Shown here piece by piece: positions 3,382-29,198 of a stretch of DNA of 64,000 bases (position 1 is its first letter; every line of letters starts with the position of its first letter). Under the pieces are notes generated by a model. That model made no database searches and had not been told where the DNA came from. It worked only from the letters and a program-made list of their open reading frames with translations. A program made the translations under genes and the position numbers. Where the stretch lies: assembly GCF_016756395.1 (NCBI RefSeq), contig NZ_AP018365.1, positions 1,805,501-1,869,500 of the forward strand, in the 5' to 3' direction. The stretch is from Streptomyces sp. SN-593 (GTDB lineage Bacteria > Actinomycetota > Actinomycetes > Streptomycetales > Streptomycetaceae).

Positions 3382-3423
3382 CGCAACGCCCGCCTCCTTG
3401 GTCGGGGAACGGCGAGCGTTGCG
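3382..3423 (-). terminator. Inverted repeat, candidate terminator for gltBD
   Basis: Arms 3382-3394 and 3411-3423 match at 12 of 13 positions, with a 16-nt loop. The repeat lies about 75 nt beyond the gltD stop and also downstream of the convergent gene ending at 3219, so it could serve both. No T-tract follows, which is common in streptomycetes. Confidence 0.45.
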
Positions 3424-3496
3424 GGTGTTGCTGCGTACCGCACCCCTTTGTGCGGGACATCTCGGGGCCGGGCGGGGCCCGGCGCGGGGTGGCCGG

Positions 3497-4960
3497 TCAG
3501 ACGGTGAGCGGCCGGTCGGTCGGGCGGATCGGCGCGGGCAGCGCCGAGGGCACCCCGGTGAGGTAGGCGTCCACGGCCTTCGCCGCCGAGCGCCCCTCCG
3601 CGATGGCCCAGACGATCAGCGACTGGCCGCGGCCGGCGTCGCCGGCGACGAAGACGCCGTCGACGTTGGTCGCGTAGGAGCCGTCCCGCGCGATGTTGCC
3701 GCGCGCGTCCAGCTCCAGGCCGACCTGCTCGATCAGGCCGTTCTTCTGGTCGGTGCCGGTGAAGCCCATCGCGAGGGTGACCAGGTCGGCCGGGATGACC
3801 CGCTCGGTGCCCTCCTGCGGCACGAACTTCCCGTCCTGGAAGACCACCTCGACCAGGTGCAGCTCGCGCACGTGGCCGTCGGCGTCGCCGGTGAACCGCA
3901 CGGTGTTGACCGCGTAGACCCGCTCGCCGCCCTCCTCGTGCGCGGAGGTGACCTTGTAGACCATCGGCATCGTCGGCCAGGGCTGGTGCGAGGGCCGCTC
4001 GTCGGACGGCCGCGGCATGATCTCGAGCTGGGTGACCGACAGCGCGCCCTGACGGTGGGCGGTGCCGACGCAGTCCGCGCCGGTGTCGCCGCCGCCGATG
4101 ACCACGACGTGCTTGCCCTCCGCGGTGATCGGCGGGGCGACGAAGTCGCCCTCCTGCACCTTGTTGGACAGCGGCAGGTACTCCATCGCCTGGTACACGC
4201 CGGTCAGTTCGCGGCCCTCGACCGGCAGGTCGCGCCACTGGGTGGCGCCGGCCGCGATGACCACCGCGTCGTAGCGCCGGACCAGCTTCGCGGCGTCGAG
4301 GTCGGTGCCGATCTGCACGCCGGTGCGGAACTTGGTGCCCTCCGCCCGCATCTGCTCGATGCGGCGGTTGATGTGCCGCTTCTCCATCTTGAACTCGGGG
4401 ATGCCGTACCGCAGCAGGCCGCCGATCCGGTCGGCCCGCTCGTAGACCGCGACGGTGTGGCCGGCCCGGGTGAGCTGCTGGGCGGCGGCCAGTCCCGCGG
4501 GGCCCGAGCCGATCACGGCGACGGTCTTGCCGGACAGGCGCTCCGGGGGCTGCGGCGTGACGTCGCCGTTGTCCCACGCCTTGTCGATGATGCTGACCTC
4601 GACGTTCTTGATCGTCACCGGCGGCTGGTTGATGCCGAGGACGCAGGCGGACTCGCACGGCGCCGGGCACAGCCGCCCGGTGAACTCCGGGAAGTTGTTG
4701 GTGGCGTGCAGCCGCTCGGACGCGGCGGTCCAGTCCTCGCGGTAGGCGTAGTCGTTCCACTCCGGGATCAGGTTCCCGAGCGGACAGCCCTGGTGGCAGA
4801 ACGGGATGCCGCAGTCCATGCAGCGGCCGGCCTGCTTGCTGACGATCGGCAGCAGCCCGCCGGGGACGTAGACCTCTTTCCAGTCCTGGCGGCGCTCCTC
4901 GACCGAGCGGGTCGGGTTGTTCTCACGCGGGGTGGTGAGGAAGCCCTTGGGGTCAGCCAT
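3497..4960 (-). CDS. gltD: Glutamate synthase small (beta) subunit
   Basis: 487 aa, the normal length for GltD. The subunit oxidises NADPH through FAD and passes electrons by iron-sulfur clusters to GltB, which makes two glutamates from glutamine and 2-oxoglutarate. The N-terminus has the two cysteine groups for [4Fe-4S] clusters ([17 protein letters not shown] and CPAPCESAC). A first dinucleotide fold is marked by [11 protein letters not shown] and a second by [11 protein letters not shown]. The FAD-closing segment [17 protein letters not shown] is near the C-terminus. The ATG overlaps the 3' end of gltB by 8 nt and is preceded by GGAGG, so the two genes are translationally coupled. Confidence 0.97.
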
Positions 4961-7900
4961 TTGCCGCCTCCATCATCTTCGCGGTGGTCTCGGACTCCGA
5001 GAGTCCGGCCTGCTCGGCGGCGTTCTTGGCGGCGAGCACTGCCTTGTAGTCCCTCGGCATGACCTTGCCGAAGCGGGTGAGGGCGCCGCCCCAGTCGGCG
5101 AGCAGCCGCTCGGCGACGGTGGAGCCGGTCTCCTCGAAGTGGCGGCGCACCACGTCGTGCAGCCACGTGATGTCGTCGGCGGTGAGCTGCTCGACCTCGA
5201 CCATCCCGGGGTTGACGCGGTCCGGGTCGAGGTCCAGCAGGTAGGCGATGCCGCCGGACATGCCGGCCGCGAAGTTCCGCCCGGTGGCCCCGAGCACCAC
5301 CGCGCGGCCGCCGGTCATGTACTCGCAGCCGTGGTCGCCCACGCCCTCGGCCACCACGGTCGCGCCGGAGTTGCGCACGCAGAACCGCTCGCCGGTGCGG
5401 CCGCGCAGGAACAGCTCGCCGCCGGTGGCGCCGTAGGCGATGGTGTTGCCCGCGATGGTGGACTCCTCCGCGAGGTGGTCCGCGCCGCGGTCCGGGCGGA
5501 CGATCACGCGGCCGCCGGACAGGCCCTTGCCGACGTAGTCGTTGGCGTCGCCCTCCAGCCGCAGCGTGATGCCCCGCGGCAGGAACGCGCCGAAGGACTG
5601 GCCGGCGGACCCGGTGAACGTAATGTCCACGGTGTCCTCGGGCAGGCCGGCGCCGCCGTACTTCTTCGTCACCTCGTGGCCGAGCATGGTGCCCACCGTG
5701 CGGTTGACGTTGAGGATCGGCACCTGCGCGCGGACCGGCGCGCCGGACTCCAGCGCGTCGGCGGCCAGCCGGATCAGCTCGTTGTCGAGCGCGCGCTCCA
5801 GCCCGTGGTCCTGGCCGGTGGTGCGGTGCAGCGCGGCGCCCTCGGGCAGCTCGGGCACGTACAGCAGCGGGGCCAGGTCCAGGCCCTGCGCCTTCCAGTG
5901 GTCCACCGCGCGGCCGGAGTCGATCAGCTCGGCGTGGCCGACGGCCTCCTCGATGCTGCGGAAGCCCAGCTCGGCGAGGATCTCCCGGACCTCCTCCGCG
6001 ATGAACTCGAAGAAGTTCACCACGAACTCGGGCTTGCCGGAGAACCGGTCGCGCAGCACCGGGTTCTGGGTGGCGACGCCGACCGGGCAGGTGTCCAGGT
6101 GGCAGACCCGCATCATGACGCAGCCGGAGACGACCAGCGGCGCGGTGGCGAAGCCGAACTCCTCGGCACCGAGCAGCGCGGCGATCACCACGTCCCGGCC
6201 GGTCTTGAGCTGGCCGTCGGTCTGCACCACGATCCGGTCCCGCAGCCCGTTGAGCAGCAGCGTCTGCTGGGTCTCGGCCAGGCCGAGCTCCCAGGGGCCG
6301 CCCGCGTGCTTCAGCGAGGTGAGCGGGGAGGCGCCGGTGCCGCCGTCGTGGCCGGAGATCAGCACCACGTCGGCGTGCGCCTTGGACACGCCCGCCGCGA
6401 CGGTGCCGACGCCGACCTCGGAGACCAGCTTGACGTGCACCCGGGCCCGGGGGTTGGCGTTCTTCAGGTCGTGGATGAGCTGGGCGAGGTCCTCGATGGA
6501 GTAGATGTCGTGGTGCGGCGGCGGGGAGATCAGGCCGACGCCCGCGGTGGAGTGCCGGGTGCCGGCGATCCACGGGTAGACCTTGTGGCCGGGAAGCTGG
6601 CCGCCCTCGCCGGGCTTGGCGCCCTGGGCCATCTTGATCTGGATGTCGTCGGCGTTGACCAGGTACTCGGAGGTGACGCCGAACCGGCCGGAGGCGACCT
6701 GCTTGATCGCGCTGCGCCGGGCCGGGTCGTACAGCCGCTCCGGGTCCTCGCCGCCCTCGCCGGTGTTGGACTTGCCGCCGAGCTGGTTCATCGCGATGGC
6801 CAGCGTCTCGTGCGCCTCGCGGGAGATCGAGCCGTACGACATGGCGCCGGTGGAGAACCGCTTGACGATCTCGGCGACCGGCTCGACCTCGTCGATCGGG
6901 ACGGCCGGGCGGTCCTGCTTGAGGCCGAACAGGCCGCGCAGCGTCATCAGCCGCTCGGACTGCTCGTTCACCCGCGAGGTGTACTGCTTGAAGATGTCGT
7001 AGCGCCGGGTGCGGGTGGCGTGCTGGAGCCGGAAGACGGTGTCGGGGTCGAACAGGTGCGGCTCGCCCTCGCGGCGCCACTGGTACTCGCCGCCGATCTC
7101 CAGCCGGCGGTGCGCGGCGGGGATGCCGGAGACCGGGTACGCCTTGGCGTGCCGGGCGGCGACCTCCCGCGCGACGACGTCGATGCCCGCCCCGCCGATC
7201 TTGGTGTCGGTGAGGTGGAAGTAGGTGTCGACGAACTCCGCGTCCAGGCCGACCGCCTCGAAGACCTGCGCGCCGCGGTAGGAGGCGACGGTGGAGATGC
7301 CCATCTTGGACATCACCTTCAGCACGCCCTTGCCGAGCGCCTTGATCAGGTTGCGCATGGCGGTCCCGGCGTCGACGCCGGGCAGGAAGGTGCCGGCCCG
7401 GACCAGGTCCTCGACGGACTCCATGGCCAGGTACGGGTTGACGGCCGCGGCGCCGTAGCCGATCAGCAGCGCGACGTGGTGCACCTCGCGCACGTCGCCG
7501 GCCTCGACGATCAGGCCGACCTGGGTGCGCTGCTTGGTGCGGATCAGGTGGTGGTGCACCGCGGAGGTGAGCAGCAGCGACGGGATCGGCGCGTGCTCGG
7601 CGTCGGAGTGCCGGTCGGAGAGCACGATCAGGCGGGCGCCGTCCTCTATGGCGGCGTCGGCCTCGGCGCAGATCTCCGCCAGGCGCGCGGCGAGCGCGTC
7701 GCCGCCGCCGGCCACCCGGTACAGGCCGGAGAGCGTGGCGCCCTTCAGGCCGGGCAGGTCGCCGTCGGCGTTGACGTGGATCAGCTTCGCCAGTTCGTCG
7801 TTGTCGATCACCGGGAACGGCAGGGTGATGTTGCGACAGGACGCGGGGCTGGGCTCCAGCAGGTTCCCGGACGGGCCGATGGTGGAGATCAGCGAGGTGA

Positions 7901-17469: not shown

Positions 17470-18240
17470 CTAGGGGGCCGTGGGGTCCTCGCCGCGGTCG
17501 AGGGCCTTCCAGAGGTCCTCGGGGCGGTCGGGGTCGATGGCGGGCGGGGCCGCGGCGCGGCCGGTGGGGCGGTCGTAGCGGCTGGACATCGCCGGCCAGC
17601 GCGAGCCGTAGCGCAGGGCGGTGAGGCCGGCGATCAGGAGCAGCAGCCCGCCGGCGACGGAGACGTAGGGCCAGCCGGTGGTGCTGGTGTGCGCGGCGGT
17701 GGCGTGGGTGAGGCTGGTCGCGGTAGCGGCGGCCGCGTCCAGGGCGCCGTGGTCGCCGCGGCGGGCGAGCGCGGTGGCGGCGGCGCCGAGGCCGCTGAGC
17801 GCGAGCAGCGCGGCGACGGTGTAGCGGCCGATCCGGCGCACCGCGAAGATCGCCACCAGCGAGGCGAGCCCGACCAGCGCGAGGGCGCCGGGCAGCGCGG
17901 TCATCTGGCTGCCGCCCGCGTGCACCGGCATGGCGTGCCCGGCGGAGGAGGCGGTGCCGCGGGCCCAGGTCTTGCCCGCCGCCAGCAGCACCAGGCTCGC
18001 GCCGACGACGCCGCAGCCGAGCGCGACGGCCAGGGCCCGGTAGGCGGTGCGGCGCGCGGGGTCGGTGCGGCGCACCACGCCGGGCGCGGCGGGATCGTCG
18101 GGGACCGTGGGATCGCCGGACGCCGCGGGGCCGTCGGGCGCCGCGGGATCGCCGGACGCCGCGGGGTCCGGCCCGGGGGCCGGGGCGGGCGGTTCGGTGG
18201 ACGTCGCGGAGTGCTCAGGCGCGGCCGGTGACGTGTTCAC
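17470..18240 (-). CDS. TIGR02234 (Trp-region conserved) membrane protein
   Basis: 256 aa. A Pro/Ala/Asp-rich low-complexity N-terminus of about 55 residues precedes four membrane segments. The C-terminal RPEDLWKALDRGEDPT is the landmark of the TIGR02234 family, found next to trpE/trpC in actinobacteria. In most streptomycetes this gene directly follows trpE. Here trpE lies 9 kb away, beyond the S53 peptidase block. Function unknown. Confidence 0.85.
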   Translation of the reverse strand: MNTSPAAPEHSATSTEPPAPAPGPDPAASGDPAAPDGPAASGDPTVPDDPAAPGVVRRTDPARRTAYRALAVALGCGVVGASLVLLAAGKTWARGTASSAGHAMPVHAGGSQMTALPGALALVGLASLVAIFAVRRIGRYTVAALLALSGLGAAATALARRGDHGALDAAAATATSLTHATAAHTSTTGWPYVSVAGGLLLLIAGLTALRYGSRWPAMSSRYDRPTGRAAAPPAIDPDRPEDLWKALDRGEDPTAP

Positions 18241-18382
18241 CCCTCCACTATCCCCTGCCCGCGCGCCGCCTTTGCGGCGGGGGCCGGTCGGGGGCGCGGG
18301 GACGGGGGGATCACGCGTGGGTCATGCGGAGCCCGCGCGTCCGCTACGTGAAGGTAAAGCGGAGATCGCCGCGGGCTCCTTG

Positions 18383-18409
18383 TTGACGTGCGCGGGTCAC
18401 CCATAGCGT
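18383..18409 (+). promoter_or_regulatory. Candidate promoter of the S53 peptidase at 18496
   Basis: TTGACG (18383-18388) and TAGCGT (18404-18409) match the streptomycete vegetative -35 and -10 patterns, although the 15-nt spacing is short. Transcription would start near 18416, giving a leader of about 80 nt. Confidence 0.45.
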
Positions 18410-18495
18410 TCCGCACGTCCCAACGATCCCAGAACCGAACAGAAGCAACAGCTTTCCCACACTCCTCAGTTCCCCCCACCACAGGAGGAAGTCGG

Positions 18496-19737
18496 TTGCG
18501 CTTCACCCTCGGCAACTTCACATCCATATCCCTCCGTACCGGCCTCGCCCTCACCGCAGCGGCGGGGCTCGCCGCGTCCGGCCTCGCCCTCGCCTCCTCG
18601 GCCGAGGCGGCCCCGGCGGCGAACGGCCTGCGGACCGCCCACTCGTGCGCCGCCGCCACGAAGGCCGGCCAGATGGCCTGTCAGGCCGTCAAGGTCACCA
18701 GCGGGGCGAGCACGCTGGCACGCTCCAGCGGCGCCGTGGACCCGGCCGCGGCCCCCTCCGGCTTCGGTCCGGACGACCTGCACGCCGCCTACAACCTGCC
18801 CACCACCGGCGGGTCGGACGCGACCGTGGCGATCGTCGACGCCTACGACGACCCCAACGCCGAAGCGGACCTCGCCACGTACCGCTCCACCTACGGCCTG
18901 CCGGAGTGCAGCACCGACAACGGCTGCTTCAGCAAGGTCGGCCAGAGCGGCAGCGCCTCCTCGCTGCCGAGCGCCGACGCCGGCTGGGCCGAGGAGATCT
19001 CGCTCGACGTCGACATGGTCAGCGCGACCTGCCCGCAGTGCCACATCCTCCTGGTGGAGGCGGACAGCTCGTCCATGAGCGACCTGGGCGCCTCGGTGAA
19101 CACCGCGGTGTCGCTCGGCGCGAAGTACGTCTCCAACAGCTACGGCGGCGGCGAGTCCTCCTCCGACGCGTCCTACGACAGCTCGTACTTCGACCACCCG
19201 GGCGTGGCGATCACGGTCAGCGCGGGCGACTCCGGCTACGGCGTGGAGTACCCGGCCGGCTCGCAGTACGTCACCTCGGTCGGCGGCACCTCGCTGACCG
19301 CCGACTCCTCCGCCCGCGGGTGGAGCGAGTCCGCCTGGGACGGCTCCGGCTCGGGCTGCTCGGCCTATGACGCGAAGCCGAGCTGGCAGACGGACAGCGG
19401 CTGCGCGAAGCGCACCGTGGCCGACGTCTCGGCGGTGGCCGACCCGAGCACCGGCGTCGCGGTCAACGACACCTACGGCGGCGACGGCGGCTGGGAGGTC
19501 TTCGGCGGCACCAGCGTGTCCTCGCCGATCATCGCCTCGGTCTACGCGCTCGCCGGCACCCCGTCGTCCGGCTCCACGCCGGCGTCGTTCCCGTACGGCC
19601 ACACGTCGGACCTGAACGACGTGACCAGCGGGTCGAACGGCTCCTGCAGCACGTCCTACCTGTGCGGCGGCGCCAGCGGCTACGACGGCCCCACCGGCCT
19701 CGGCACCCCGAACGGCCTCGCGGCCTTCACCGGCTGA
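18496..19737 (+). CDS. Secreted S53-type serine peptidase
   Basis: 413 aa from a TTG at 18496, chosen because AGGAGG ends 7 nt upstream and a Sec signal peptide follows at once (two Arg/basic residues, hydrophobic residues about 17-33, then SSAEAAP). The start is thus rarer than ATG/GTG. The sedolisin catalytic residues are visible: Glu167 and Asp171 (ExxxD in EISLD), Asp245 in SAGDSGYG, and Ser340 in FGGTSVSSP. Asp residues near 375 and 397 fit the calcium site. Four Cys pairs suit an extracellular protein. The pro-region is short (about 50 residues). It is related to the larger peptidase at 23046. The regulator at 19911 lies downstream, past a hairpin. Confidence 0.88.
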   Translation: MRFTLGNFTSISLRTGLALTAAAGLAASGLALASSAEAAPAANGLRTAHSCAAATKAGQMACQAVKVTSGASTLARSSGAVDPAAAPSGFGPDDLHAAYNLPTTGGSDATVAIVDAYDDPNAEADLATYRSTYGLPECSTDNGCFSKVGQSGSASSLPSADAGWAEEISLDVDMVSATCPQCHILLVEADSSSMSDLGASVNTAVSLGAKYVSNSYGGGESSSDASYDSSYFDHPGVAITVSAGDSGYGVEYPAGSQYVTSVGGTSLTADSSARGWSESAWDGSGSGCSAYDAKPSWQTDSGCAKRTVADVSAVADPSTGVAVNDTYGGDGGWEVFGGTSVSSPIIASVYALAGTPSSGSTPASFPYGHTSDLNDVTSGSNGSCSTSYLCGGASGYDGPTGLGTPNGLAAFTG

Positions 19738-19770
19738 CACCGGACGGGCCCGCCAGGGCGGCACGGTGAT

Positions 19771-19817
19771 CGCGCGGTTCCCCGCACCCCGAAGGCACGG
19801 GTGCGGGGAACCGCGCG
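19771..19817 (+). terminator. Perfect 19-bp hairpin after the S53 peptidase
   Basis: Arms CGCGCGGTTCCCCGCACCC (19771-19789) and its exact complement (19799-19817) flank a 9-nt loop, 34 nt beyond the stop. It is a copy of the dispersed hairpin family seen at 12957 and 56144. It separates the peptidase from the LuxR gene. Confidence 0.75.
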
Positions 19818-19910
19818 TTCCGCCGCCCGGACAACCCCTGGCGTACCCGCAGGTCGCGGCGGAGAATTGGCCGGTCGGACGGGGGCGTCGGCTGGAGGGG
19901 TGGCTCGGGG

Positions 19911-22847
19911 GTGGCGGAACGCTGGCTCGGCCGGACGCGGTTCGTGGGACGCGACCGCGAACTCGCACGGGTGGTGGAGGCGTTGGCGCGCCCGCCCGCG
20001 CTCGTACTGATCGAGGGCGAGGCGGGCATCGGCAAGAGCCGGCTCGTCCGGGAGGCCGTGGCGGCCACCGACCGCGACGGCGCGCGGACGCTGCTGGCGG
20101 TGTGCCCGCCGTTCCTGGAGGCGTTCACCCTCGGGCCCGTGGTGGACGCCGTACGGGAGGCCGCACCCGACGTGGCGGCCCTCGGGCTGACCGCCGTCGC
20201 GGGCGCGCTGCGCCCGCTGTTCCCCGAGTGGTCGCAGGACCTGCCGCCCGCGCCCGAACCGCCGGCCGACGCCGGGGTGGCCCGCCACCAGCTCGTCCGG
20301 GCGCTGGCCGAACTGCTCGACCGCGCCGGCGTCGAGGTGCTGGTCGTGGAGGACGTGCACTGGGCCGACGCCACCACGCTGGACTTCCTGGTGTACGTCG
20401 CCACCCGCCGGCCCCGGCCGCTGACCCTGGTGCTCACCTACCGGCCCGAGGAGGTGGCGGCGGACTCGCCGCTGCTGCGGCTGACCTCGCGCCCGGCGCA
20501 GGACGTGTGCCAGGTGCGCGCGACCCTCGGCGGGCTGCCGGTGTCCGACGCGGCCGGCCTCGCGTCGTCGATGCTCGGCGGCGACCGCGTCTCGGCCGGC
20601 TTCGCCGCCTTCCTCCACGACCGGACCGAGGGGGTGCCGCTGGCGCTGGAGGAGTGCGTACGCCTGCTGCGCGACCGCGACGACCTCACCTGCCGGGACG
20701 GCGAGTGGGCGCGCCGCGGCCTGGACGAGATCGCAGTGCCGCCGACCATCCGCGACTCGGTGACCGAGCGGGTGGCCCGGCTCGGCGCGGACGCCCGGCG
20801 GGTGCTGCTGGCCGCGGCGGTGCTCACCGACCCCGTGGACGAGCGCACCCTGGCGGCCGTCACGGGGCTGCCGGTCGGCCGCTGGCCCGCGGCGCTGCGC
20901 GCGTCCCTCGGCAGCGGCCTGCTCGGGGAGACCACCGCGCGGCCCGGCGGCGGCCTGCCGGCCGGCCGGACCGGGATCGCCTTCCGGCACGTGCTGGCCG
21001 CGCGGGCGGTGTACGACCGGGCGGCGGCCCACGAGCGCGCCGCCGCGCACCGCCGGGCGGGCGAGGCCCTGGAGACCGCGGTACCGCCTCCGGTCGGCCG
21101 GCTCGCCCACCACTTCCGGGAGGCGGGGCTGACCCGGCGGTGGTTCGCCTACGCCCGGCAGGCCGCCCTGCTCGCGCTCTCCTCCGGCGACCACCGCACC
21201 GCGGCGGGACTGCTGCACGCCCTGATCACCGAGCCGACGCTGCCGCCCACCGAGGTCGCGGCCCTGGCCGGGCAGGTGTCGTCGCACGCGTTCACCGGCG
21301 ACCCCAGGGCCGGGGAGATCGCGCGGACCCTGCGCGCGGTGGTGGACTCGGGGCGGCTGGGCCGGCGCGACCGGGCGGCCGTGCGCGCGCAGTTGGGCCG
21401 GATGCTGCTGACGGTCGGCGAGTACACCGAGGCGGCCGCCGTCCTCGAACAGGCCATCCCCGACCTGGCCGACCACGGCTACCCGGTCGCGTCGGCGATG
21501 ACCGTGCTGGGGCTGCCGCTGCACGACTCCTGGCCGGTGGCGACGCACCTGCGCTGGCTGGAGCGGGCCGAGGCGGTCGCGTCGTCGTCCGAGATCGGCC
21601 CGGTGGACCGGTTCGAGCTGCGGCTGGCCCGGATGACCGCGCTGTTCGAGCTCGGCGAGGAGTCCGGCTGGGAGCTGGCCGGCCGGATCGACGCGGACGA
21701 GTCCAGCCCGCAGGCCGCCGTCCTGACCGCGCGGTTCCACCTCAACGCGGGCCACGCCGCGATGAAGTGGGGCCGGTACGCCGACGCCCGCCGGTACCTG
21801 GCCGCGGCGGTGGACGTCGCCGGCCGGCACGGCTACCAGCGGTTGCGCGACCTGGCCCTGGTGACCGCGGGCCACCTGGACTGGCTGACCGGCGCGTGGG
21901 ACGGCCTGGACGAACGGCTGGCGGCCTGGCAGGAGGTGGACGGCGAACCGCTGATCCGCATGGACGCCCTGCTGGTCGGCACCCAGCTACGGGTCGCCCG
22001 CGGCGGTCCCGACGAGGAGGCGCGGAAGGTGCTGGCTGCGGTGCGCGAGGAGAGCGTACGGCGGGGCACCACCGACCTGCCCGCGGAGGCCGCCGGCGCC
22101 CTGGCCAGGGTCGCGGCGGAGCCCTCGGCGGACCACACCGCCGAACCGGTCGGCCGCCTGGTCCGCAAGGGCGTCTGGCTGTGGGCCGGGGAGGTGCTGC
22201 CCGAGCACCTCGCGGCGCTCACCTCGGCCGGCCGCCGGAGCGAGGCGGAGGAACTGGTCGCCGCCTTCGAGGACGGCGCGCGGGGCCGGGACGCGCCGGT
22301 GCTCGCCGCCACCCTCGCCTCCTGCCGCGCCCTGCTCGCCGAGGGCCGCGGCCGCCCCGCCGCCGCGGCCGACGCCTGGGAGGCCGCCGCGAGCGCCTGG
22401 CGGGCCCTGCCCCGCCCCTACGACGCGGCCAAGGCCGGGGAACGGCGGGCCCGGTGCCTGCTGCGCGACGGGCGCCGCACGGCCGCGCTCGCCGCACTGC
22501 GCGCCGCCCACCGCGAGTTCACCTCGCTCGGGGCGCGGTACGACGCGGACCGGGTGCGGCGGGCCCTCGACGCGCAGGGTGCCGGGGCCGAGGGCCCCTG
22601 GCGGCCCGGCCGGCGCGGCTACGGCGACCGCCTGTCCCCGCGCGAGCTGGAGGTGGTCCGGCTGGTCGCCACCGGCCTGACCAACCGGGAGATCGCCAAG
22701 GCGCTGTCGCGCTCGCCGAAGACGGTGGCGACGCAGCTCAACTCCGCGATGCGCAAGCACGGGGTCTCCTCGCGGACGGCGCTGGCGGTCCGGGTCACCC
22801 AGGCGGGGTACGACGCCGGCGCCGAGCCCGGCCCCTCGCCCGCCTGA
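19911..22847 (+). CDS. LuxR-type LAL regulator with AAA ATPase domain
   Basis: 978 aa, the usual size of large ATP-binding LuxR regulators. The N-terminal ATPase has the P-loop GEAGIGKS (36-43) and Walker B VLVVEDVHWAD (near 143). A long middle of helical TPR-like repeats follows. The C-terminal LuxR helix-turn-helix is LSPRELEVVRLVATGLTNRE onwards (near 905-960). The GTG at 19911 has GGAGGGG about 10 nt upstream. Lying between two S53 peptidases, it may control them, but that is inference. No TTA codon analysis was possible by eye. Confidence 0.9.
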   Translation: MAERWLGRTRFVGRDRELARVVEALARPPALVLIEGEAGIGKSRLVREAVAATDRDGARTLLAVCPPFLEAFTLGPVVDAVREAAPDVAALGLTAVAGALRPLFPEWSQDLPPAPEPPADAGVARHQLVRALAELLDRAGVEVLVVEDVHWADATTLDFLVYVATRRPRPLTLVLTYRPEEVAADSPLLRLTSRPAQDVCQVRATLGGLPVSDAAGLASSMLGGDRVSAGFAAFLHDRTEGVPLALEECVRLLRDRDDLTCRDGEWARRGLDEIAVPPTIRDSVTERVARLGADARRVLLAAAVLTDPVDERTLAAVTGLPVGRWPAALRASLGSGLLGETTARPGGGLPAGRTGIAFRHVLAARAVYDRAAAHERAAAHRRAGEALETAVPPPVGRLAHHFREAGLTRRWFAYARQAALLALSSGDHRTAAGLLHALITEPTLPPTEVAALAGQVSSHAFTGDPRAGEIARTLRAVVDSGRLGRRDRAAVRAQLGRMLLTVGEYTEAAAVLEQAIPDLADHGYPVASAMTVLGLPLHDSWPVATHLRWLERAEAVASSSEIGPVDRFELRLARMTALFELGEESGWELAGRIDADESSPQAAVLTARFHLNAGHAAMKWGRYADARRYLAAAVDVAGRHGYQRLRDLALVTAGHLDWLTGAWDGLDERLAAWQEVDGEPLIRMDALLVGTQLRVARGGPDEEARKVLAAVREESVRRGTTDLPAEAAGALARVAAEPSADHTAEPVGRLVRKGVWLWAGEVLPEHLAALTSAGRRSEAEELVAAFEDGARGRDAPVLAATLASCRALLAEGRGRPAAAADAWEAAASAWRALPRPYDAAKAGERRARCLLRDGRRTAALAALRAAHREFTSLGARYDADRVRRALDAQGAGAEGPWRPGRRGYGDRLSPRELEVVRLVATGLTNREIAKALSRSPKTVATQLNSAMRKHGVSSRTALAVRVTQAGYDAGAEPGPSPA

Positions 22848-22977
22848 CCCTCGCGCCGATTCGCGCCGCCCCGCCCCGTACCCCGCGCCGCCCCGCGCGG
22901 CGCCCACCGGTGGAGCCGGGGTCGCGCCCTTCGGTGCGGACGGGACCGGGGCCGGGTCCGGGTCCGGGCCGGTCGGC

Positions 22978-23023
22978 CCGCGGCCCCGCGCCCTCGCGTG
23001 CGTGCGAGGGGGCGGGGCCGCGG
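22978..23023. terminator. Bidirectional terminator between the LAL regulator and the S53-Kelch gene
   Basis: Arms 22978-22997 and 23004-23023 pair at 19 of 20 positions with a 6-nt loop. The hairpin lies midway between two convergent stops (22847 and 23046). Confidence 0.7.
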
Positions 23024-23045
23024 CCTCGGTCGGGTGCCTTCCGGG

Positions 23046-26000
23046 TCAGTGGTGTCCCTTCTTCGCGGTGACGGTGAAGGCGACGGGGACCGCCGGGCGC
23101 ACGTAGGGGGAGTCGGTGACCAGGGAGAGGCCGGCGGTGTAGCGGCCGGCCGCGGGGACGTGCGAGGCGTCCGCGGTGACCAGGAGGTCGGCGGAGTGCC
23201 CCGGCTTGATGGTGAGGGTGGTGCGCTGCTCGGTCAGCCAGCCCACGTCGTCGCCCCCGCACTGGTCGAAGCCGGGGAGCACGTCGGCGTCGGCGGTGCC
23301 CACACCGAACGACAGGCCGTTGGCGTAGGCACCGCCGACCTGGTACATCCCGCATCCGCTGCCGCCGCCGCGCAGGAGCGCCAGCGGGGTGTCCGGCAGG
23401 TCCGTCCACCGGTCGGTCACCGGGTCGAACTGGACCGTCCGGTCGGTGGCGCCCGACGTGCTGTAGCCGCCGGCGATCTGCAACTCGCCGTTGGCTCCGC
23501 TGGAGGCCATGCCCCAGACCGGGTAGGGCAGGTCCGGCAGCGGGGTCCAGGCGCCGGAGCGGGGGCTGTAGGCGTAGGCGGTCGCCAGCGCCTGGGTGCG
23601 CCCGGCGTTCGTGCTCGCTCCGCCGGCGCACACCACCTCGTCGGAGATCCCCGCGCACGCCTCGCGCTGCACGGTCGTCGGGTAGTCGGCGGCCTTGGTC
23701 CACCGGCCCGTGGCCGGGGTGTACCGGTAAACGGCGGCCTGGGTCTGGTCGCAGCCGTCCGCGCAGCCGCCGACCACGTAGAGCGCGCCGTCCAGGACCG
23801 CGACGGCCCCGGTCTCCTCGGGCGCCGGCAGGCTCGCGAGCGTCGTCCAGGTGTCGGTGGCGGGGTGGTAGGCGTAGACGGAGGACCGGACCTGGACAGT
23901 GCCGGCGTCCGCGTCGCCGGTCCAGCCGCCGATCACGTACAGCGTGCCGTCGAGGAAGGCCGCCGAGGCGCCCGCCAGCGGTTCGGGCAGGTCGGCGATG
24001 CGCTGCCAGGCCGCGCCCACCGGGTCGTAGACGTACGCCTCGGCCAGCGCGGTGCCGCCGACGACCTGGCGGATGCCGCCGACCGAGTACGCCCGGCCCT
24101 GGTAGTCGGCCTCGGCGTTGTCCAGCACCGGTTCCGGCAGCGCGGGCAGGCGCTGCCAGTCGTCGGAGGAGGCACCGGTGGCGGCGGTGTAGCCGCCGCT
24201 CTGCTCGCCGACGGTGACGGTGATCGGCGCGCCGCCGGTGTTGGTGAGGGTGAGCTGCCGCACGTCCCGCTTGCCGAGGACCGCGCTCGCGGTGACCTTG
24301 CCCGGGGCCACCGTCAGCTCGCCCGCCGCGAGGGCGGTGCGCGCCGTGGTGACGGCGTCCCTGGTGGTGGCGACGGTCCTGGTGGCCGTGACGTAGCGGT
24401 TGGCGGCCGCGGTGTAGGTGTGGCGGCCGGCGCCCTTGGCGAACAGCCAGTACCAGCCGTCCGGCAGGGCCGGGTCGTCCGGGGTGGCGGTGGTGGCGGT
24501 GGTGGCCTCCGGGTCGGCGGTGTCGGTGACGACGGCGCCGTCGACCGCCTTGCCGGTGTTCGCGTCGGTGACGGTGCCGGTGACGATCCCGCCGGGCACG
24601 GTCGCGCAGGTGCCCACGGTCACGTCGTCCAACTGCCAGAGCGTCGTGCCCTGTCCGGTGAAGTGGAAGCGCAGCTCGACGTCGCTGCGGCCGTAGGCGG
24701 CGGTGAGCGGCACGCTGACCGCGGTGACGAGGTCGCCGGTGCTCTGGTGCCACACCGAGGTCCAGGTCTTCCCGCCGTCGGTGCTCAGCCCGACGTCGGC
24801 GGAGGTGTCGGACGTGCCGAGGTAGGCGGTGTCGAAGTGCAGCGCGGGGTCGGTCTGCCCGCTCAGGTCCATCACCGGAGTGGTCAGGGTGGTGTCCTCG
24901 GCGGCGCCGCCGTGGTCGTAGGGATCGGCGGTGGCGAAGTTGCCGCTGCCGCCGGTGAGGTTCCACATGGTGGAGTCGAACTGCCAGGTGTCCCCCGCGG
25001 CCGCGCCGGTGACGGCCCATCCGCTCCTCGGCGCGGTGGACCAGTCCTCGAAGTCCGCCGCCGCCGGGTACGCGTAGCCGGGTGCCGCGCACCCGGCGCG
25101 GTCCGCGGTGAGCGGGACGTCGTGGCGCACGTCCGACGCGCCCAGGGAGACGGTGGCGTCGGACTGCTCGTAGCCGGGGTAGACCGACGCCACGTGCAGC
25201 GTGTAGGCGGCGTCGCGCGGCAGTTCGACGGAGTAGGCACCGGTCTTCGGGTCGGTGTGGATCGCGCCGGACGGGTAGCCGTCGATGGTGATCCTCGCGT
25301 ACAGCGGGTAGCCGTGGCCGGAGCCGTCGGTGACCTTGCCGCTGAGCGTCCGGGTGGGCTGCTTGGTCAGGGCGAGGTCGGTGGTGGCGGACTGGCCGAC
25401 GGACACGGTGACGCCGGAGGCGCGGGCGGTGTCGTAGCCGAAGTCGGTGGCGGCGGCGGTGTACGTACCGGCCGGCAGGGTCAGCGCGTAGGCGCCGGAG
25501 GTGTCGGCGGTGGCCCGGTAGGTGAGGGTGCCGTCCTCGGCCGTGAAGGTGATCACGGCGCCGGGGAGCCCGGCGCCGCCGGAGGCGTCGGTCAGGCGGC
25601 CGGCGACGGTGCCGCCGGGCTGCTGGACCAGCGCGGACACGCCGTCGGGGGTGCCGAGGCCGGTCGGCCCGTCCCAGCCGGCGCCGGCCGTGCACAGCAC
25701 GCCGCCGCAGCTTCCGTCGCTGCCGGCGGTGACGTCGAAGAGGTGGTTGCCCTGGTCGGCGTAGGGATAGGTGACCGGGTAGGTGCCCGCGGCGGGCGTG
25801 CCGGCCAGCGCGTACATGGCGGCCGTCAGCGGGGCGGACAGGCTCGTGCCGCCGACCTGGAGCCAGCCGTCCTGGCCGAGCGTGTCGTAGATGCCCAGTC
25901 CCGTCTGGGGGTCGGCGTCGGCGGCGATGTCGGCGGTCGCCCGCCGGGCGCAGCCGGTGGCCAGGCCGCTCTGGTAGCCGGGCTGCGGTTCGTACAGCGA

Positions 26001-26924
26001 GCAGCCGCTGCCGCCCTCGGACCAGGCGGACTCGCTCCAGCCGCGGTCGCTGCCGGCGTCGGCGGTCAGCGTGGTGCCGCCGACGGCGACCACGTCCGGG
26101 TCGGACGCCGGCCAGTTGACGATGTTGCCCTTGTCCCCGGTGGAGGCGGTGACCACGACGCCGGGGTGGTCGTAGTGGGCGGAGTAGGAGGTCTCGATGC
26201 TGCTCTCGCCGGACAGGCCGTAGGAGTTCGAGACGAACTTCGCGCCCAGGCTCACCGCGGTGTCCGCGGCGGCGCCGAGGTCGCCGAGGGCCGCCGAGTC
26301 GCCCTCGACCAGCAGGATGTGGCACTGGGGGCACGCGGAGGACACCGCGTCCAGGTCCAGCGCCGTCTCCAGGGCCCATCCCGCGTCGTCCGCGGGGTAG
26401 CCGGTGCCGCCGCGCTGGTCCACCTTGCGGAAGCAGCCGTCGGAGCTCCCGCACGCCGGGAGGCCGTACTGCGCGCGGAAGGCGGCGAGGTCGGACTCGG
26501 CTGCGGTGTAGCCTCCCGCGTCCACCACCGCGACGGTCTGCCCCTTGCCGGCGCCGGCCGGCAGCCGGTACGCCTGCTGGATGTCGGTGGGGGTCAGCGC
26601 GGTGGCCGGCGGCCCGGAGGCGTCCGCCCTGACGGTGTGGCTGGTGCCGGTGCTGATCAGGGCGTCGCAGGTCGCGACGGGCTGACCGGCGCCGGCGTCG
26701 GCGGCCGCGCAGCCGGCGGGGGTGTAGTGCGGCAGGTCGTCGGCGAGGGCCGGCGGGATGTCGGGCTGTCCGGTGGCGCTCGTGGCCGCGGCGGTGGTGG
26801 CGGTGAGCGGGGAGGGCGGAGTGGCGGCGGCGCTGAGGTCCTGGCCGGTGGCCAGCGTGCAGAGCGCCGCGACGGCGGCTATGAGCAGCGGGACTGGCGC
26901 GCGCGTGCGCCCGCGTCGGAACAT
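23046..26924 (-). CDS. Secreted multidomain S53-type peptidase with Kelch repeats
   Basis: 1292 aa from the ATG at 26924 (AAAGGG about 11 nt upstream; a GTG at 26936 adds four residues). A signal peptide (hydrophobic residues 11-26) is followed by a short pro-region. The sedolisin domain spans about residues 110-430, with Glu186/Asp190 (ETALD), Asp264 (STGDKG) and Ser361 (VGGTSLSAP). Then come two carboxypeptidase-regulatory-like beta-sandwich repeats (about 438-610), a MAM/immune-inhibitor-A-like segment (about 615-780), a third beta-sandwich (775-860), about five Kelch repeats (920-1215; YVIGGWTGDA, YVVGGCADGC) and a C-terminal beta-sandwich. The Kelch propeller suggests binding to a partner or polymer. 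Convergent with the LAL regulator. Confidence 0.88.
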   Translation of the reverse strand: MFRRGRTRAPVPLLIAAVAALCTLATGQDLSAAATPPSPLTATTAAATSATGQPDIPPALADDLPHYTPAGCAAADAGAGQPVATCDALISTGTSHTVRADASGPPATALTPTDIQQAYRLPAGAGKGQTVAVVDAGGYTAAESDLAAFRAQYGLPACGSSDGCFRKVDQRGGTGYPADDAGWALETALDLDAVSSACPQCHILLVEGDSAALGDLGAAADTAVSLGAKFVSNSYGLSGESSIETSYSAHYDHPGVVVTASTGDKGNIVNWPASDPDVVAVGGTTLTADAGSDRGWSESAWSEGGSGCSLYEPQPGYQSGLATGCARRATADIAADADPQTGLGIYDTLGQDGWLQVGGTSLSAPLTAAMYALAGTPAAGTYPVTYPYADQGNHLFDVTAGSDGSCGGVLCTAGAGWDGPTGLGTPDGVSALVQQPGGTVAGRLTDASGGAGLPGAVITFTAEDGTLTYRATADTSGAYALTLPAGTYTAAATDFGYDTARASGVTVSVGQSATTDLALTKQPTRTLSGKVTDGSGHGYPLYARITIDGYPSGAIHTDPKTGAYSVELPRDAAYTLHVASVYPGYEQSDATVSLGASDVRHDVPLTADRAGCAAPGYAYPAAADFEDWSTAPRSGWAVTGAAAGDTWQFDSTMWNLTGGSGNFATADPYDHGGAAEDTTLTTPVMDLSGQTDPALHFDTAYLGTSDTSADVGLSTDGGKTWTSVWHQSTGDLVTAVSVPLTAAYGRSDVELRFHFTGQGTTLWQLDDVTVGTCATVPGGIVTGTVTDANTGKAVDGAVVTDTADPEATTATTATPDDPALPDGWYWLFAKGAGRHTYTAAANRYVTATRTVATTRDAVTTARTALAAGELTVAPGKVTASAVLGKRDVRQLTLTNTGGAPITVTVGEQSGGYTAATGASSDDWQRLPALPEPVLDNAEADYQGRAYSVGGIRQVVGGTALAEAYVYDPVGAAWQRIADLPEPLAGASAAFLDGTLYVIGGWTGDADAGTVQVRSSVYAYHPATDTWTTLASLPAPEETGAVAVLDGALYVVGGCADGCDQTQAAVYRYTPATGRWTKAADYPTTVQREACAGISDEVVCAGGASTNAGRTQALATAYAYSPRSGAWTPLPDLPYPVWGMASSGANGELQIAGGYSTSGATDRTVQFDPVTDRWTDLPDTPLALLRGGGSGCGMYQVGGAYANGLSFGVGTADADVLPGFDQCGGDDVGWLTEQRTTLTIKPGHSADLLVTADASHVPAAGRYTAGLSLVTDSPYVRPAVPVAFTVTAKKGHH

Positions 26925-27015
26925 GGCGGAGGTCACCCTTTCGTCGGTCCTGACGACTCGTCGGCCGCGCGCCGGCGCGCCCGCCGTGCGGGTAATCGTC
27001 GAGGGAGGCGCGCCC

Positions 27016-27021
27016 AGTATC
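27016..27021 (-). promoter_or_regulatory. Candidate -10 box of the S53-Kelch gene
   Basis: On the minus strand the sequence reads GATACT, about 90 nt before the start at 26924, in a region (26925-27060) that is less GC-rich than its surroundings. A weak GTCAAC lies 16 nt further upstream. The rest of the 307 nt between this gene and trpE shows nothing convincing. Confidence 0.35.
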
Positions 27022-27231
27022 GGTATGACCGGGGCGCGTTGACGATCGGGCAGATGACCTAAACAAACCCCCCACCCGCCACTTCCGGCACGCGGCAACC
27101 GCCCGCCGGCGGCGCGCGGCGCCGACCCGAGCCGGTGCTGCCGAGCGGCAGGGCAGCGGCGCGGCGGGGCACGGCCGGAAGCGGCGGGGAGCCCGGGGGG
27201 CCCGACCCGGCCGCTCCTCCGGGAAGGCGCC

Positions 27232-28740
27232 TCAGGCGTGGAGGCGGTTGGCGGTGTTCACCGCCCGCAGCACGGCGGCGGCCTTGTTGCGGCACTCCGT
27301 GTCCTCCGCGACGGGATCGGAGTCCGCGACGATGCCGGCGCCCGCCTGGACGTAGGCGGTGCCGTCGCGCAGCAGCGCGGTGCGGATCGCGATCGCGGTG
27401 TCGGAGTCGCCGGCGAAGTCGAGGTAGCCGACGCAGCCGCCGTACAACCCCCGCCTGGCGGGCTCCAGTTCCTCGATGATCTGCATCGCGCGGGGCTTGG
27501 GCGCGCCGGAGAGCGTGCCGGCGGGGAAGCAGGCGGTGAGCACGTCGAAGGCGGTGCGGCCGGGCGCGACGCGGCCGGTGACGGTCGAGACGATGTGCAT
27601 CACGTGCGAGTACCGCTCGACCGACATGAAGTCGACCACCTCCACGCTGCCGGGCTCGCAGACCCGGCCCAGGTCGTTGCGGCCGAGGTCCACCAGCATC
27701 AGGTGCTCGGCGCGCTCCTTGGGGTCGGCGAGGAGTTCCTCGGCGAGCGCCGCGTCGGCCTGCGGGGTGGCGCCGCGCGGGCGGGTGCCGGCGATCGGGT
27801 GCACCATGGCGTGCCCGTCCTCGACCTTGACCAGCGCCTCGGGGCTGGACCCGACCACGTCGAAGCCGCCCTCGGCGCCGCCGTCCTCGCCGGGGAAGCG
27901 CAGCAGGTACATGTACGGGCTCGGGTTGGTGGCCCGCAGCACCCGGTACACGTCCAGGGCGCTCGCCGCGCACGGCGTCTCGAACCGCTGCGAGGGCACC
28001 ACCTGGAACGCCTCGCCGGCCCGGATGCGCTCCTTGACGTCCTCCACCGCGTCCCGGAAGTCCTGGCCGCCCCACCGGGTGGTGTACTCCGGCAGCTCCG
28101 AGCGCGGCAGCACCACCGGGGGGTGTTCGACCGGGCGGCCGAGGTCGGCCTCCATCGCGTCCAAGCGCGCCACCGCGCCGGCGTACGCCTCGTCCACGCC
28201 GGTGTCCCGGTCGTTGTGGTTGATCGCGTTGGCGATCAGCAGCACGCTGCCGTCCCAGTGGTCCAGCACGGCCATGTCCGAGGTGAGCAGCATCGTCAGC
28301 TCGGGCAGCCGCAGTTCGTCGCTGCCGTGCTCGCCGATCCGCTCCAGGCGCCGGACGATGTCGTAGCCGAGGTAGCCGACCATGCCGCCGGTGAACGGGG
28401 GCATGCCGCCGGCCAGGTCGCGCGGGGTGTGCAGCGCCTCCACGGTGGCCCGCAGCGCGGCCAGCGGGTCGCCGTCCACCGGGACGCCCACCGGGGGCGT
28501 GCCGAGCCAGTGCGCCTGCCCGTCGCGCGCGGTCAGGGTCGCGTCCGAGCGGACCCCGACGAAGCTGTAGCGGGACCACGCCTTGCTGTCCTCCGCGGAC
28601 TCCAGCAGGAAGGTGCCGACGCGCTCGCCGGCGAGCTTCCGGTACAGGCCGACCGGGGTGTCGCCGTCCGCGAGCAGTCTCCTGGTGACCGGGATGACGC
28701 GGCGGTCGACGGCGAGCTTGCGGAAGGTAGCGAGGTCCAT
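27232..28740 (-). CDS. trpE: Anthranilate synthase component I
   Basis: 502 aa. It makes anthranilate from chorismate with ammonia from a TrpG partner, which is not in this window. It opens MDLATFRKLAVDRRVIPVTR. The N-terminal LLESAED carries the tryptophan feedback-site region. The chorismate-binding domain holds PSPYMYLLRF, HPIAGTRPRG, ELLADPKERAEHLMLVDLGR and CFPAGTLSGAPK. The ATG at 28740 has no ribosome site, but TAGTCT (28749-28754) lies 8 nt upstream, so a leaderless transcript is likely and a classical leader-peptide attenuator is unlikely. It follows hisI on the same strand. Confidence 0.96.
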   Translation of the reverse strand: MDLATFRKLAVDRRVIPVTRRLLADGDTPVGLYRKLAGERVGTFLLESAEDSKAWSRYSFVGVRSDATLTARDGQAHWLGTPPVGVPVDGDPLAALRATVEALHTPRDLAGGMPPFTGGMVGYLGYDIVRRLERIGEHGSDELRLPELTMLLTSDMAVLDHWDGSVLLIANAINHNDRDTGVDEAYAGAVARLDAMEADLGRPVEHPPVVLPRSELPEYTTRWGGQDFRDAVEDVKERIRAGEAFQVVPSQRFETPCAASALDVYRVLRATNPSPYMYLLRFPGEDGGAEGGFDVVGSSPEALVKVEDGHAMVHPIAGTRPRGATPQADAALAEELLADPKERAEHLMLVDLGRNDLGRVCEPGSVEVVDFMSVERYSHVMHIVSTVTGRVAPGRTAFDVLTACFPAGTLSGAPKPRAMQIIEELEPARRGLYGGCVGYLDFAGDSDTAIAIRTALLRDGTAYVQAGAGIVADSDPVAEDTECRNKAAAVLRAVNTANRLHA

Positions 28741-28748
28741 GGCCGCAG

Positions 28749-28754
28749 AGACTA
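28749..28754 (-). promoter_or_regulatory. -10 box TAGTCT for a leaderless trpE transcript
   Basis: Read on the minus strand, TAGTCT is followed by eight nucleotides and the trpE ATG. Transcription would therefore begin at or next to the start codon. Confidence 0.5.
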
Positions 28755-28847
28755 GCCGTCCGGGGCGCCCCCGGCGCACCCGGTGCCCGCCGTGCCAGCC
28801 GGGGGACCACCTGCCGGCGGGGCGGGGCGCGGCGGCCGGCCGGGCCG

Positions 28848-29198
28848 CTACCCCTCCAGGAGGACGTCCTGGTCGAAGCAGGTGGGGGCGCCGGTGTGGC
28901 AGGCGGCGCCGGTCTGGTCGACGCGGACGAGGATCGTGTCGCCGTCGCAGTCCAGGGCGACGGACCGGACGTGCTGCACGTGGCCGGAGGTGTCGCCCTT
29001 GACCCAGTACTCCCGGCGGCTGCGGCTCCAGTAGGTGCAGCGGCCGGTGGTGAGCGTGCGGTGCAGCGCCTCGTCGTCCATCCACCCGAGCATCAGCACC
29101 TCACCGGTGTCGTACTGCTGGGCGATGGCCGGAACCAGACCGTCGGGGTTGCGTTTGAGGCGCGCGGCGATCGCGGGGTCGAGCGAGGTCGAGGGCAT
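28848..29198 (-). CDS. hisI: Phosphoribosyl-AMP cyclohydrolase
   Basis: 116 aa, the length of stand-alone HisI without a HisE domain. It opens the adenine ring of PR-AMP, the third step of histidine synthesis. Metal ligands are in [20 protein letters not shown] (Asp/Cys) and [19 protein letters not shown] and [18 protein letters not shown] are family landmarks. The ATG at 29198 begins [15 protein letters not shown]; the open frame extends further upstream without similarity. It is apart from the main his operon and next to trpE. Confidence 0.95.

Follow-up and report, generated by a model that had tools for sequence, protein, structure and literature searches.

A LAL-type regulator gene beside an S53-Kelch peptidase gene in the trpE-TIGR02234 interval of Streptomyces sp. 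SN-593

What is known of LAL-type LuxR regulators mostly concerns their part as switches for antibiotic clusters, beside which they are usually reported. Here we consider one with peptidase genes as neighbours, found in a 64,000-nucleotide stretch of contig 1 of Streptomyces sp. SN-593 (positions 1,805,501-1,869,500 of a genome of 8.97 Mb; this whole stretch is called the window and coordinates are counted from its first letter). Three genes stand there between the gene for the TIGR02234 membrane protein and trpE: a first S53 peptidase gene (S53 no. 1, 18496-19737, + strand), a LAL gene (19911-22847, + strand) and a gene for a larger S53 peptidase with Kelch repeats (S53-Kelch, 23046-26924, - strand). 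Their existence and coordinates, given by an initial annotation, were confirmed. We consider it probable that they form two layers, S53 no. 1 having its own promoter, and the LAL and S53-Kelch genes being a second regulator-target unit, probably inserted, in which the LAL protein would activate S53-Kelch.

Among the described systems closest to this one, the SARP-LAL regulator PimR has a SARP part that is described as binding heptameric direct repeats (PMC5930380), and a LAL with negative action, SCO6993, is on record (PMC9628970); both statements follow the excerpts available of these reports. On the peptidase side, the available part of the report on endopeptidase E40 from Actinoallomurus A8, an actinomycete of acidic soil, describes a secreted S53 enzyme of 398 amino acids (aa) with a short pro-segment, active at pH 3-6 (PMC6739405), and S53 peptidases have been linked to acidophily in archaea, according to an extract of that work (PMC6411800). 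An S53 peptidase under LAL control was not found described in searches of an open-licence library, as judged by the listed titles and the beginnings of abstracts.

A spaced dyad shared by LAL-S53 cassettes

The LAL gene encodes a protein of 978 aa with an N-terminal AAA_16 ATPase domain (residues 10-172, E 1e-20) and a C-terminal GerE helix-turn-helix (residues 907-960, E 3e-13), an arrangement and a size (about 1000 aa) that it shares with LAL regulators such as MalT and PikD; its recognition helix reads SPKTVATQLNSAMRK. The upstream regions compared have in common a box of the form TTTAGGTCAnnTGnCnnATCG, followed by the -10-like element ATACT at 41-43 bases from the box start. The sole match to this box in the window at up to three mismatches (0.02 expected by chance) is exact and precedes S53-Kelch: this predicted LAL operator, TTTAGGTCATCTGCCCGATCG, lies at 27043-27063 on the - strand, with ATACT (27016-27020, - strand) 43 bases from its start and 22 bases beyond its end.

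Genome-wide scans associate the box with S53 genes. At up to two mismatches, the 35 genus genomes contain 34 box sites and a reversed-pattern control gives 15; each of the 13 sites with no or one mismatch stands in front of an S53 gene, directly or with one gene in between (layout 2, below), and one of the 21 two-mismatch sites (G002:C135, locus L182) was followed and precedes an S53-Kelch gene. A LAL of the same subfamily stands beside 12 of the 13. The thirteenth site, at L257, belongs to an operon (3389-7066) of a box-bearing 677-aa gene and an S53 gene; the 14 kb read there contain no LAL gene, and the operon may be controlled remotely by a LAL encoded elsewhere in that genome. The genome of SN-593 has two box sites, one in the window and one in a cassette at 8.04 Mb (L185). 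Across 297 genomes of the family, scanned at up to one mismatch, 22 sites were found (the 13 above and nine from other genera) with none in the reversed-pattern control; 14 of the 22 are linked to S53 genes, and ATACT at 41-43 bases accompanies 12 of the 14 as against none of the other 8.

The two kinds of gene also recur together. LAL relatives were taken at E up to 1e-60 with at most 24 candidates scored per genome, which places the subfamily in at least 16 of the 35 genus genomes, that of SN-593 included; the S53-Kelch query, for which the best 18 candidates per genome were scored, has matches in all 35, at least 2 to 24 each and many over the S53 domain only. Neighbourhoods were read for 30 LAL copies from the genus, three from other genera and six of seven records of a plasmid collection (the seventh, a second S. 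anthocyanicus record, was left out). A summed tblastn score above 280 retained 36 distinct copies including that of the window (37 rows, L187_1 and L190_0 being the same copy). For 29 of them an S53 gene follows downstream at a distance of no more than 3.2 kb; 25 of these share its strand and four are convergent with it (the window, L181, L183 and L187_0, the last sharing its S53 neighbour with L187_1). Of the three weaker copies below the threshold, L207 and L208 adjoin S53-Kelch genes on the opposite strand and L206 adjoins none. A low-stringency scan of three genomes found S53 genes within 3.2 kb of all eight subfamily LALs and within 15 kb of none of four weaker LAL-like matches. Such pairs are also carried by linear plasmids of Streptomyces sp. 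NBC_00841 and NBC_01450.

Two layouts are seen, the LAL gene being followed either by S53-Kelch (layout 1) or by a gene whose product, of about 660-870 aa, looks secreted, and then a short S53 gene (layout 2). Three of these intervening proteins (L185:10540-12525, L191:10538-13150 and L221:12292-14298; 661-870 aa) gave no Pfam match, and NCBIfam, searched with two of the three, gave no convincing one. The trees of the LAL and S53 proteins agree over 28 pairs, two of which have an incomplete member (L202, L203), with a Mantel r of 0.64 (0 of 5000 permutations); within the 17 S53-Kelch pairs r is 0.56 and within the 11 short-S53 pairs 0.97, again with 0 of 5000 permutations each.

The best reason to regard the LAL as the protein that binds the box is that recognition helix and box change together, four groups of LAL each having a recognition helix and a kind of box of its own. 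Clades I (that of the window) and B1 have helices of the SPKT(V/I)A.Q type, slightly different in L188 and L216, and the TTTAGGTCA box. In the other groups, where the blocks lie just downstream of the LAL gene, a AAAAATAGGTGATCcGCCGGAT-like block goes with the helix SPKTVAQHLSS.MRK (5 rows), a TTTCCCGGGTAGTTCTGCGCATTG block with SPRTVEKHV..AMRK (four of five aligned rows, the block of the fifth, L200, being found in the sequences themselves) and a TTGGGTCATCTGACGCATCC-like block with SPRTV.RHLDSAMRK (2 rows).

This covariation bears on the possibility that the box is bound by another regulator or a paralogous LAL, the adjacent LAL being a hitch-hiker or controlling something else. The L257 operon would suit such an arrangement, as would the two further subfamily LALs in the genome of SN-593, one of them in the L185 cassette, which carries this box too; with box type following the helix of the adjacent LAL, and with box, LAL and S53 recurring together on different contigs and plasmids, we hold it to be quite improbable. 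Repression of S53-Kelch by the LAL, or mere fine-tuning, for which SCO6993 would be a precedent, appears very doubtful: the box does not cover the -10 element or the start, and its end at 22 bases before ATACT is a usual position for an activator.

Several observations nevertheless weigh against the LAL as the dedicated activator of its neighbour. No S53 gene was found near seven of the 36 copies (L194, L196, L204, L205, L218, L222 and L223), of which L204 and L205 lie at contig ends, and the cassette in the window is convergent, in contrast to the tandem arrangement common elsewhere. Within clade I the trees do not agree significantly (10 pairs, r 0.20, 572 of 5000 permutations), so partners may be exchanged there, and the Mantel permutations ignore the relatedness of the genomes. 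The two-mismatch scan of the genus is near background, the S53-linked boxes of L179 and L181 have no ATACT at 41-43 bases, and outside the genus one of nine box matches precedes an S53 gene (L268, an S53-Kelch gene beside a LAL); among the other eight, that of L263 falls within another open reading frame, some 0.7 kb beyond the end of a distant S53-like gene. The boxes of the other LAL groups come from alignments rather than genome-wide scans, and the set of clade-I helices lacks that of L183, which could not be recovered.

We nevertheless favour activation by the LAL, with S53-Kelch most likely its only target of the two peptidase genes. The protein would bind the imperfect dyad AGGTCA-nn-TGnCC, the centre of which lies some 33 bases upstream of the S53 gene's ATACT, and the ATPase/sensor part of the LAL would, on meeting a signal, turn on S53-Kelch in the manner of LuxR-type activators.

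Two features of the cassettes stand apart from the window. Small, acidic and variable peptide genes of 40-117 aa lie between box and S53 gene in several of them (L185:10300-10497, L198:10753-10944, L217:10327-10536 and others); a scan picked up such a gene in 16 of the 25 tandem cassettes, with a C-terminal end of GYEPL, EYRPV or YRPL according to the LAL group (L180 ends in GCAPL), three examples gave no NCBIfam family, and none was seen in the window, L181 or L183, the last two being convergent cassettes. At L222, on an S. anthocyanicus plasmid, a subfamily LAL without a nearby S53 gene has an M4 metallopeptidase gene about 2.4 kb before it, and this regulator may have switched peptidase. 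As a tentative and somewhat doubtful generalisation, these could be movable, mutually insulated regulator-peptidase cassettes, several per genome, each LAL having diverged with its own operator and the tagged peptide possibly serving as signal or partner of the LAL or peptidase of its clade.

Two layers between trpE and TIGR02234

The left flank of the three genes is the TIGR02234/Trp_oprn_chp gene (17470-18240, - strand; PF09534 E 3e-47, TIGR02234 E 2e-39) and the right flank is trpE (27232-29085), on the - strand like S53-Kelch. Both anchors were present in 78 of the 80 trpE loci taken, the best by similarity out of at least 565; in 73 of the 78 a gap of 45-377 bp separates them and in five it holds an S53 gene placed as in the window. 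The statement of the initial annotation that trpE adjoins TIGR02234 in most streptomycetes thus holds for this sample, as does its corollary that such genes are missing at this site from most of the Streptomyces loci seen. Within the genus, 34 relatives were searched and 32 loci fetched (G032 gave no match and the match of G016 is at a contig end), with both flanks present in 30; the sampling is uneven, and gene starts outside the window are not all fixed. S53 no. 1 is near full-length in 21 of these 30, at 64-93% identity, and absent from seven, intactness being judged by alignment length. A C-terminal remnant remains in two (L137 and L143), and decay of the gene appears to be under way in some species. 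Outside the 30, L139, with an S53 gene beside TIGR02234, stops short of trpE, and L146 breaks off within TIGR02234. S53 no. 1 is therefore the usual genus-level occupant of the gap. Standing on the opposite strand, it splits trpE from TIGR02234, and from the run of trp genes named in the initial annotation, in the same 21 relatives, so separate promoters are probably needed on its two sides.

By contrast with S53 no. 1, the LAL and S53-Kelch genes were found in the gap of none of the 30 relatives at the threshold used. By blastn, the two nearest relatives align up to or into the hairpin behind S53 no. 1, and alignment resumes at the end of trpE, with S53 no. 1 and trpE about 80 bp apart in L120 and about 200 bp apart in L116; because they align only outside it, the extra stretch can be placed at roughly 19830-27231 (about 7.4 kb). 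A comparable inverted repeat is read at the hairpin position in L120 and L116, and the extra stretch therefore begins after the hairpin. This terminator-like hairpin (19768-19820, + strand; inverted repeat I25) folds with a z of -5.6 over 19760-19830 and is the one strong hairpin among the three stretches folded. The strong hairpins said to bound the block are thus borne out after S53 no. 1, but not after the LAL gene (z -1.1) or after trpE (z -0.35), where folding resembles that of shuffled sequence. Scans for T-tailed terminators and sigma-70 promoters gave no match, nor did Rfam at gathering thresholds over 9000-34000.

The LAL and S53-Kelch stretch is either a private gain or the survivor of repeated loss, and we regard gain as likely, not proven. 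The best matches in other genus genomes are at 65% for the LAL and, for S53-Kelch, at 57% over the whole protein and up to 66% over the S53 domain (as compared in three genomes), and therefore no close donor is visible. That both genes are ancestral in the genus and were lost everywhere else, with nothing inserted, would fit the ends and the composition of the stretch: no convincing end repeats were found, only GC-rich weak repeats and the hairpin (transposase genes were not scanned for), composition shows no break, and GC content at third codon positions is 0.97 for both genes as against 0.92-0.98 for the named neighbours. We nevertheless judge this unlikely, no trace having been detected in the gap of any of the 30 relatives at the threshold used.

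The promoter of S53 no. 1 is of another type. A block conserved in the genus (18351-18409, + strand), seen in an alignment of 23 upstream regions including that of the window, consists of a GGTAAAGCGG-type element, then CTTGTTGACGTG, then a -10 region of the TAGCGT/TACG type, unlike the LAL box, which is absent upstream of S53 no. 1 in the window at up to three mismatches. This block and a TTG start, preceded in the window by GGAGG, are common to most of the 23 regions (L118 and L138 have no block), and the promoter also occurs in genomes without a detected subfamily LAL (for example G003, G004 and G006). A motif shared by the regions upstream of 18496 and 26924 had been proposed as a check; the box stands at the second only and the block at the first differs from it on visual inspection, the two regions not having been put through a general motif search. 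S53 no. 1 is thus probably controlled separately from the LAL and S53-Kelch unit.

The initial annotation had proposed one inserted three-gene module, in which the LAL may switch on both peptidases and which could be connected with amino-acid supply. The genes are adjacent, and trpE and S53-Kelch share a strand, so that read-through is possible; we nonetheless find this model most improbable, as S53 no. 1 stands alone in the gap of 21 of the 30 relatives and has a different conserved promoter and no box. Among the genomes compared, the LAL and S53-Kelch genes alone are private to SN-593, and what survives of the regulatory proposal is that the LAL very probably controls a neighbouring peptidase, though probably not both. 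No link of the cassette to tryptophan was found, and the proposed tie to amino-acid supply is unsupported: SN-593 has further related LAL-S53 cassettes, at 4.0 Mb and at 8.0 Mb, and cassettes of this family are also found on other contigs and on plasmids, so the trpE neighbourhood looks incidental.

The peptidases and their known counterparts

Single-sequence searches of S53 no. 1 (413 aa) against Pfam, curated families and solved structures miss the S53 domain. A profile built from 17 relatives does find it, matching, over the catalytic domain only, kumamolisin (E 4e-33) and sedolisin (E about 8e-22; 7e-22). The family hallmarks, Glu-x3-Asp, the oxyanion Asp and Ser in GTSxxxP, are all present, and the tetrad E167, D171, D245 and S340 is invariant in all 17 aligned sequences, S53-Kelch included. 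The Pro-kuma_activ prodomain (PF09286) was matched in neither peptidase, and its four occurrences in the genome lie outside the window; we file both under S53 on the catalytic domain, since E40, an S53 enzyme according to the accessible account of its authors, also has a short pro-segment (PMC6739405). The S53-Kelch product (1292 aa) has an S53 domain, CarboxypepD_reg domains and Kelch repeats and, signal peptides being judged by eye, is predicted to be a secreted acid-type peptidase. By analogy with E40 and with the link of S53 to acidophily in archaea, it would digest protein in acidic soil, and its Kelch and accessory domains might, as a guess, serve for attachment to a surface or a substrate.

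A subfamily of LAL proteins associated with secreted acid-type peptidases, and having operators that are readable from sequence and vary with the recognition helix, would offer a natural series for the study of LAL DNA recognition. It would also supply tunable promoters for E40-like enzymes and offer insight into the control of protein scavenging in these actinobacteria.

Going by the available description of E40, S53 no. 1 resembles that enzyme in being short (413 versus 398 aa) with a short pro-segment, and its residues E167, D171, D245 and S340 correspond, compared by published positions alone, to active-site residues 156, 160, 231 and 329, whereas S53-Kelch differs from E40 in its long extra domains (PMC6739405). 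Both window peptidases are like kumamolisin and sedolisin (S53; PDB 1t1e and 1ga1) in catalytic domain and tetrad, by profile match, and unlike them in having no matched Pro-kuma_activ prodomain. On the regulator side, where the usual LALs have antibiotic clusters as neighbours, the subfamily in the window is associated with S53 peptidase genes and with a spaced dyad. It differs in this from PimR as well, whose sites are given in the excerpted report as heptameric direct repeats (PMC5930380), the element associated with the subfamily described here being a dyad with its two halves set apart.

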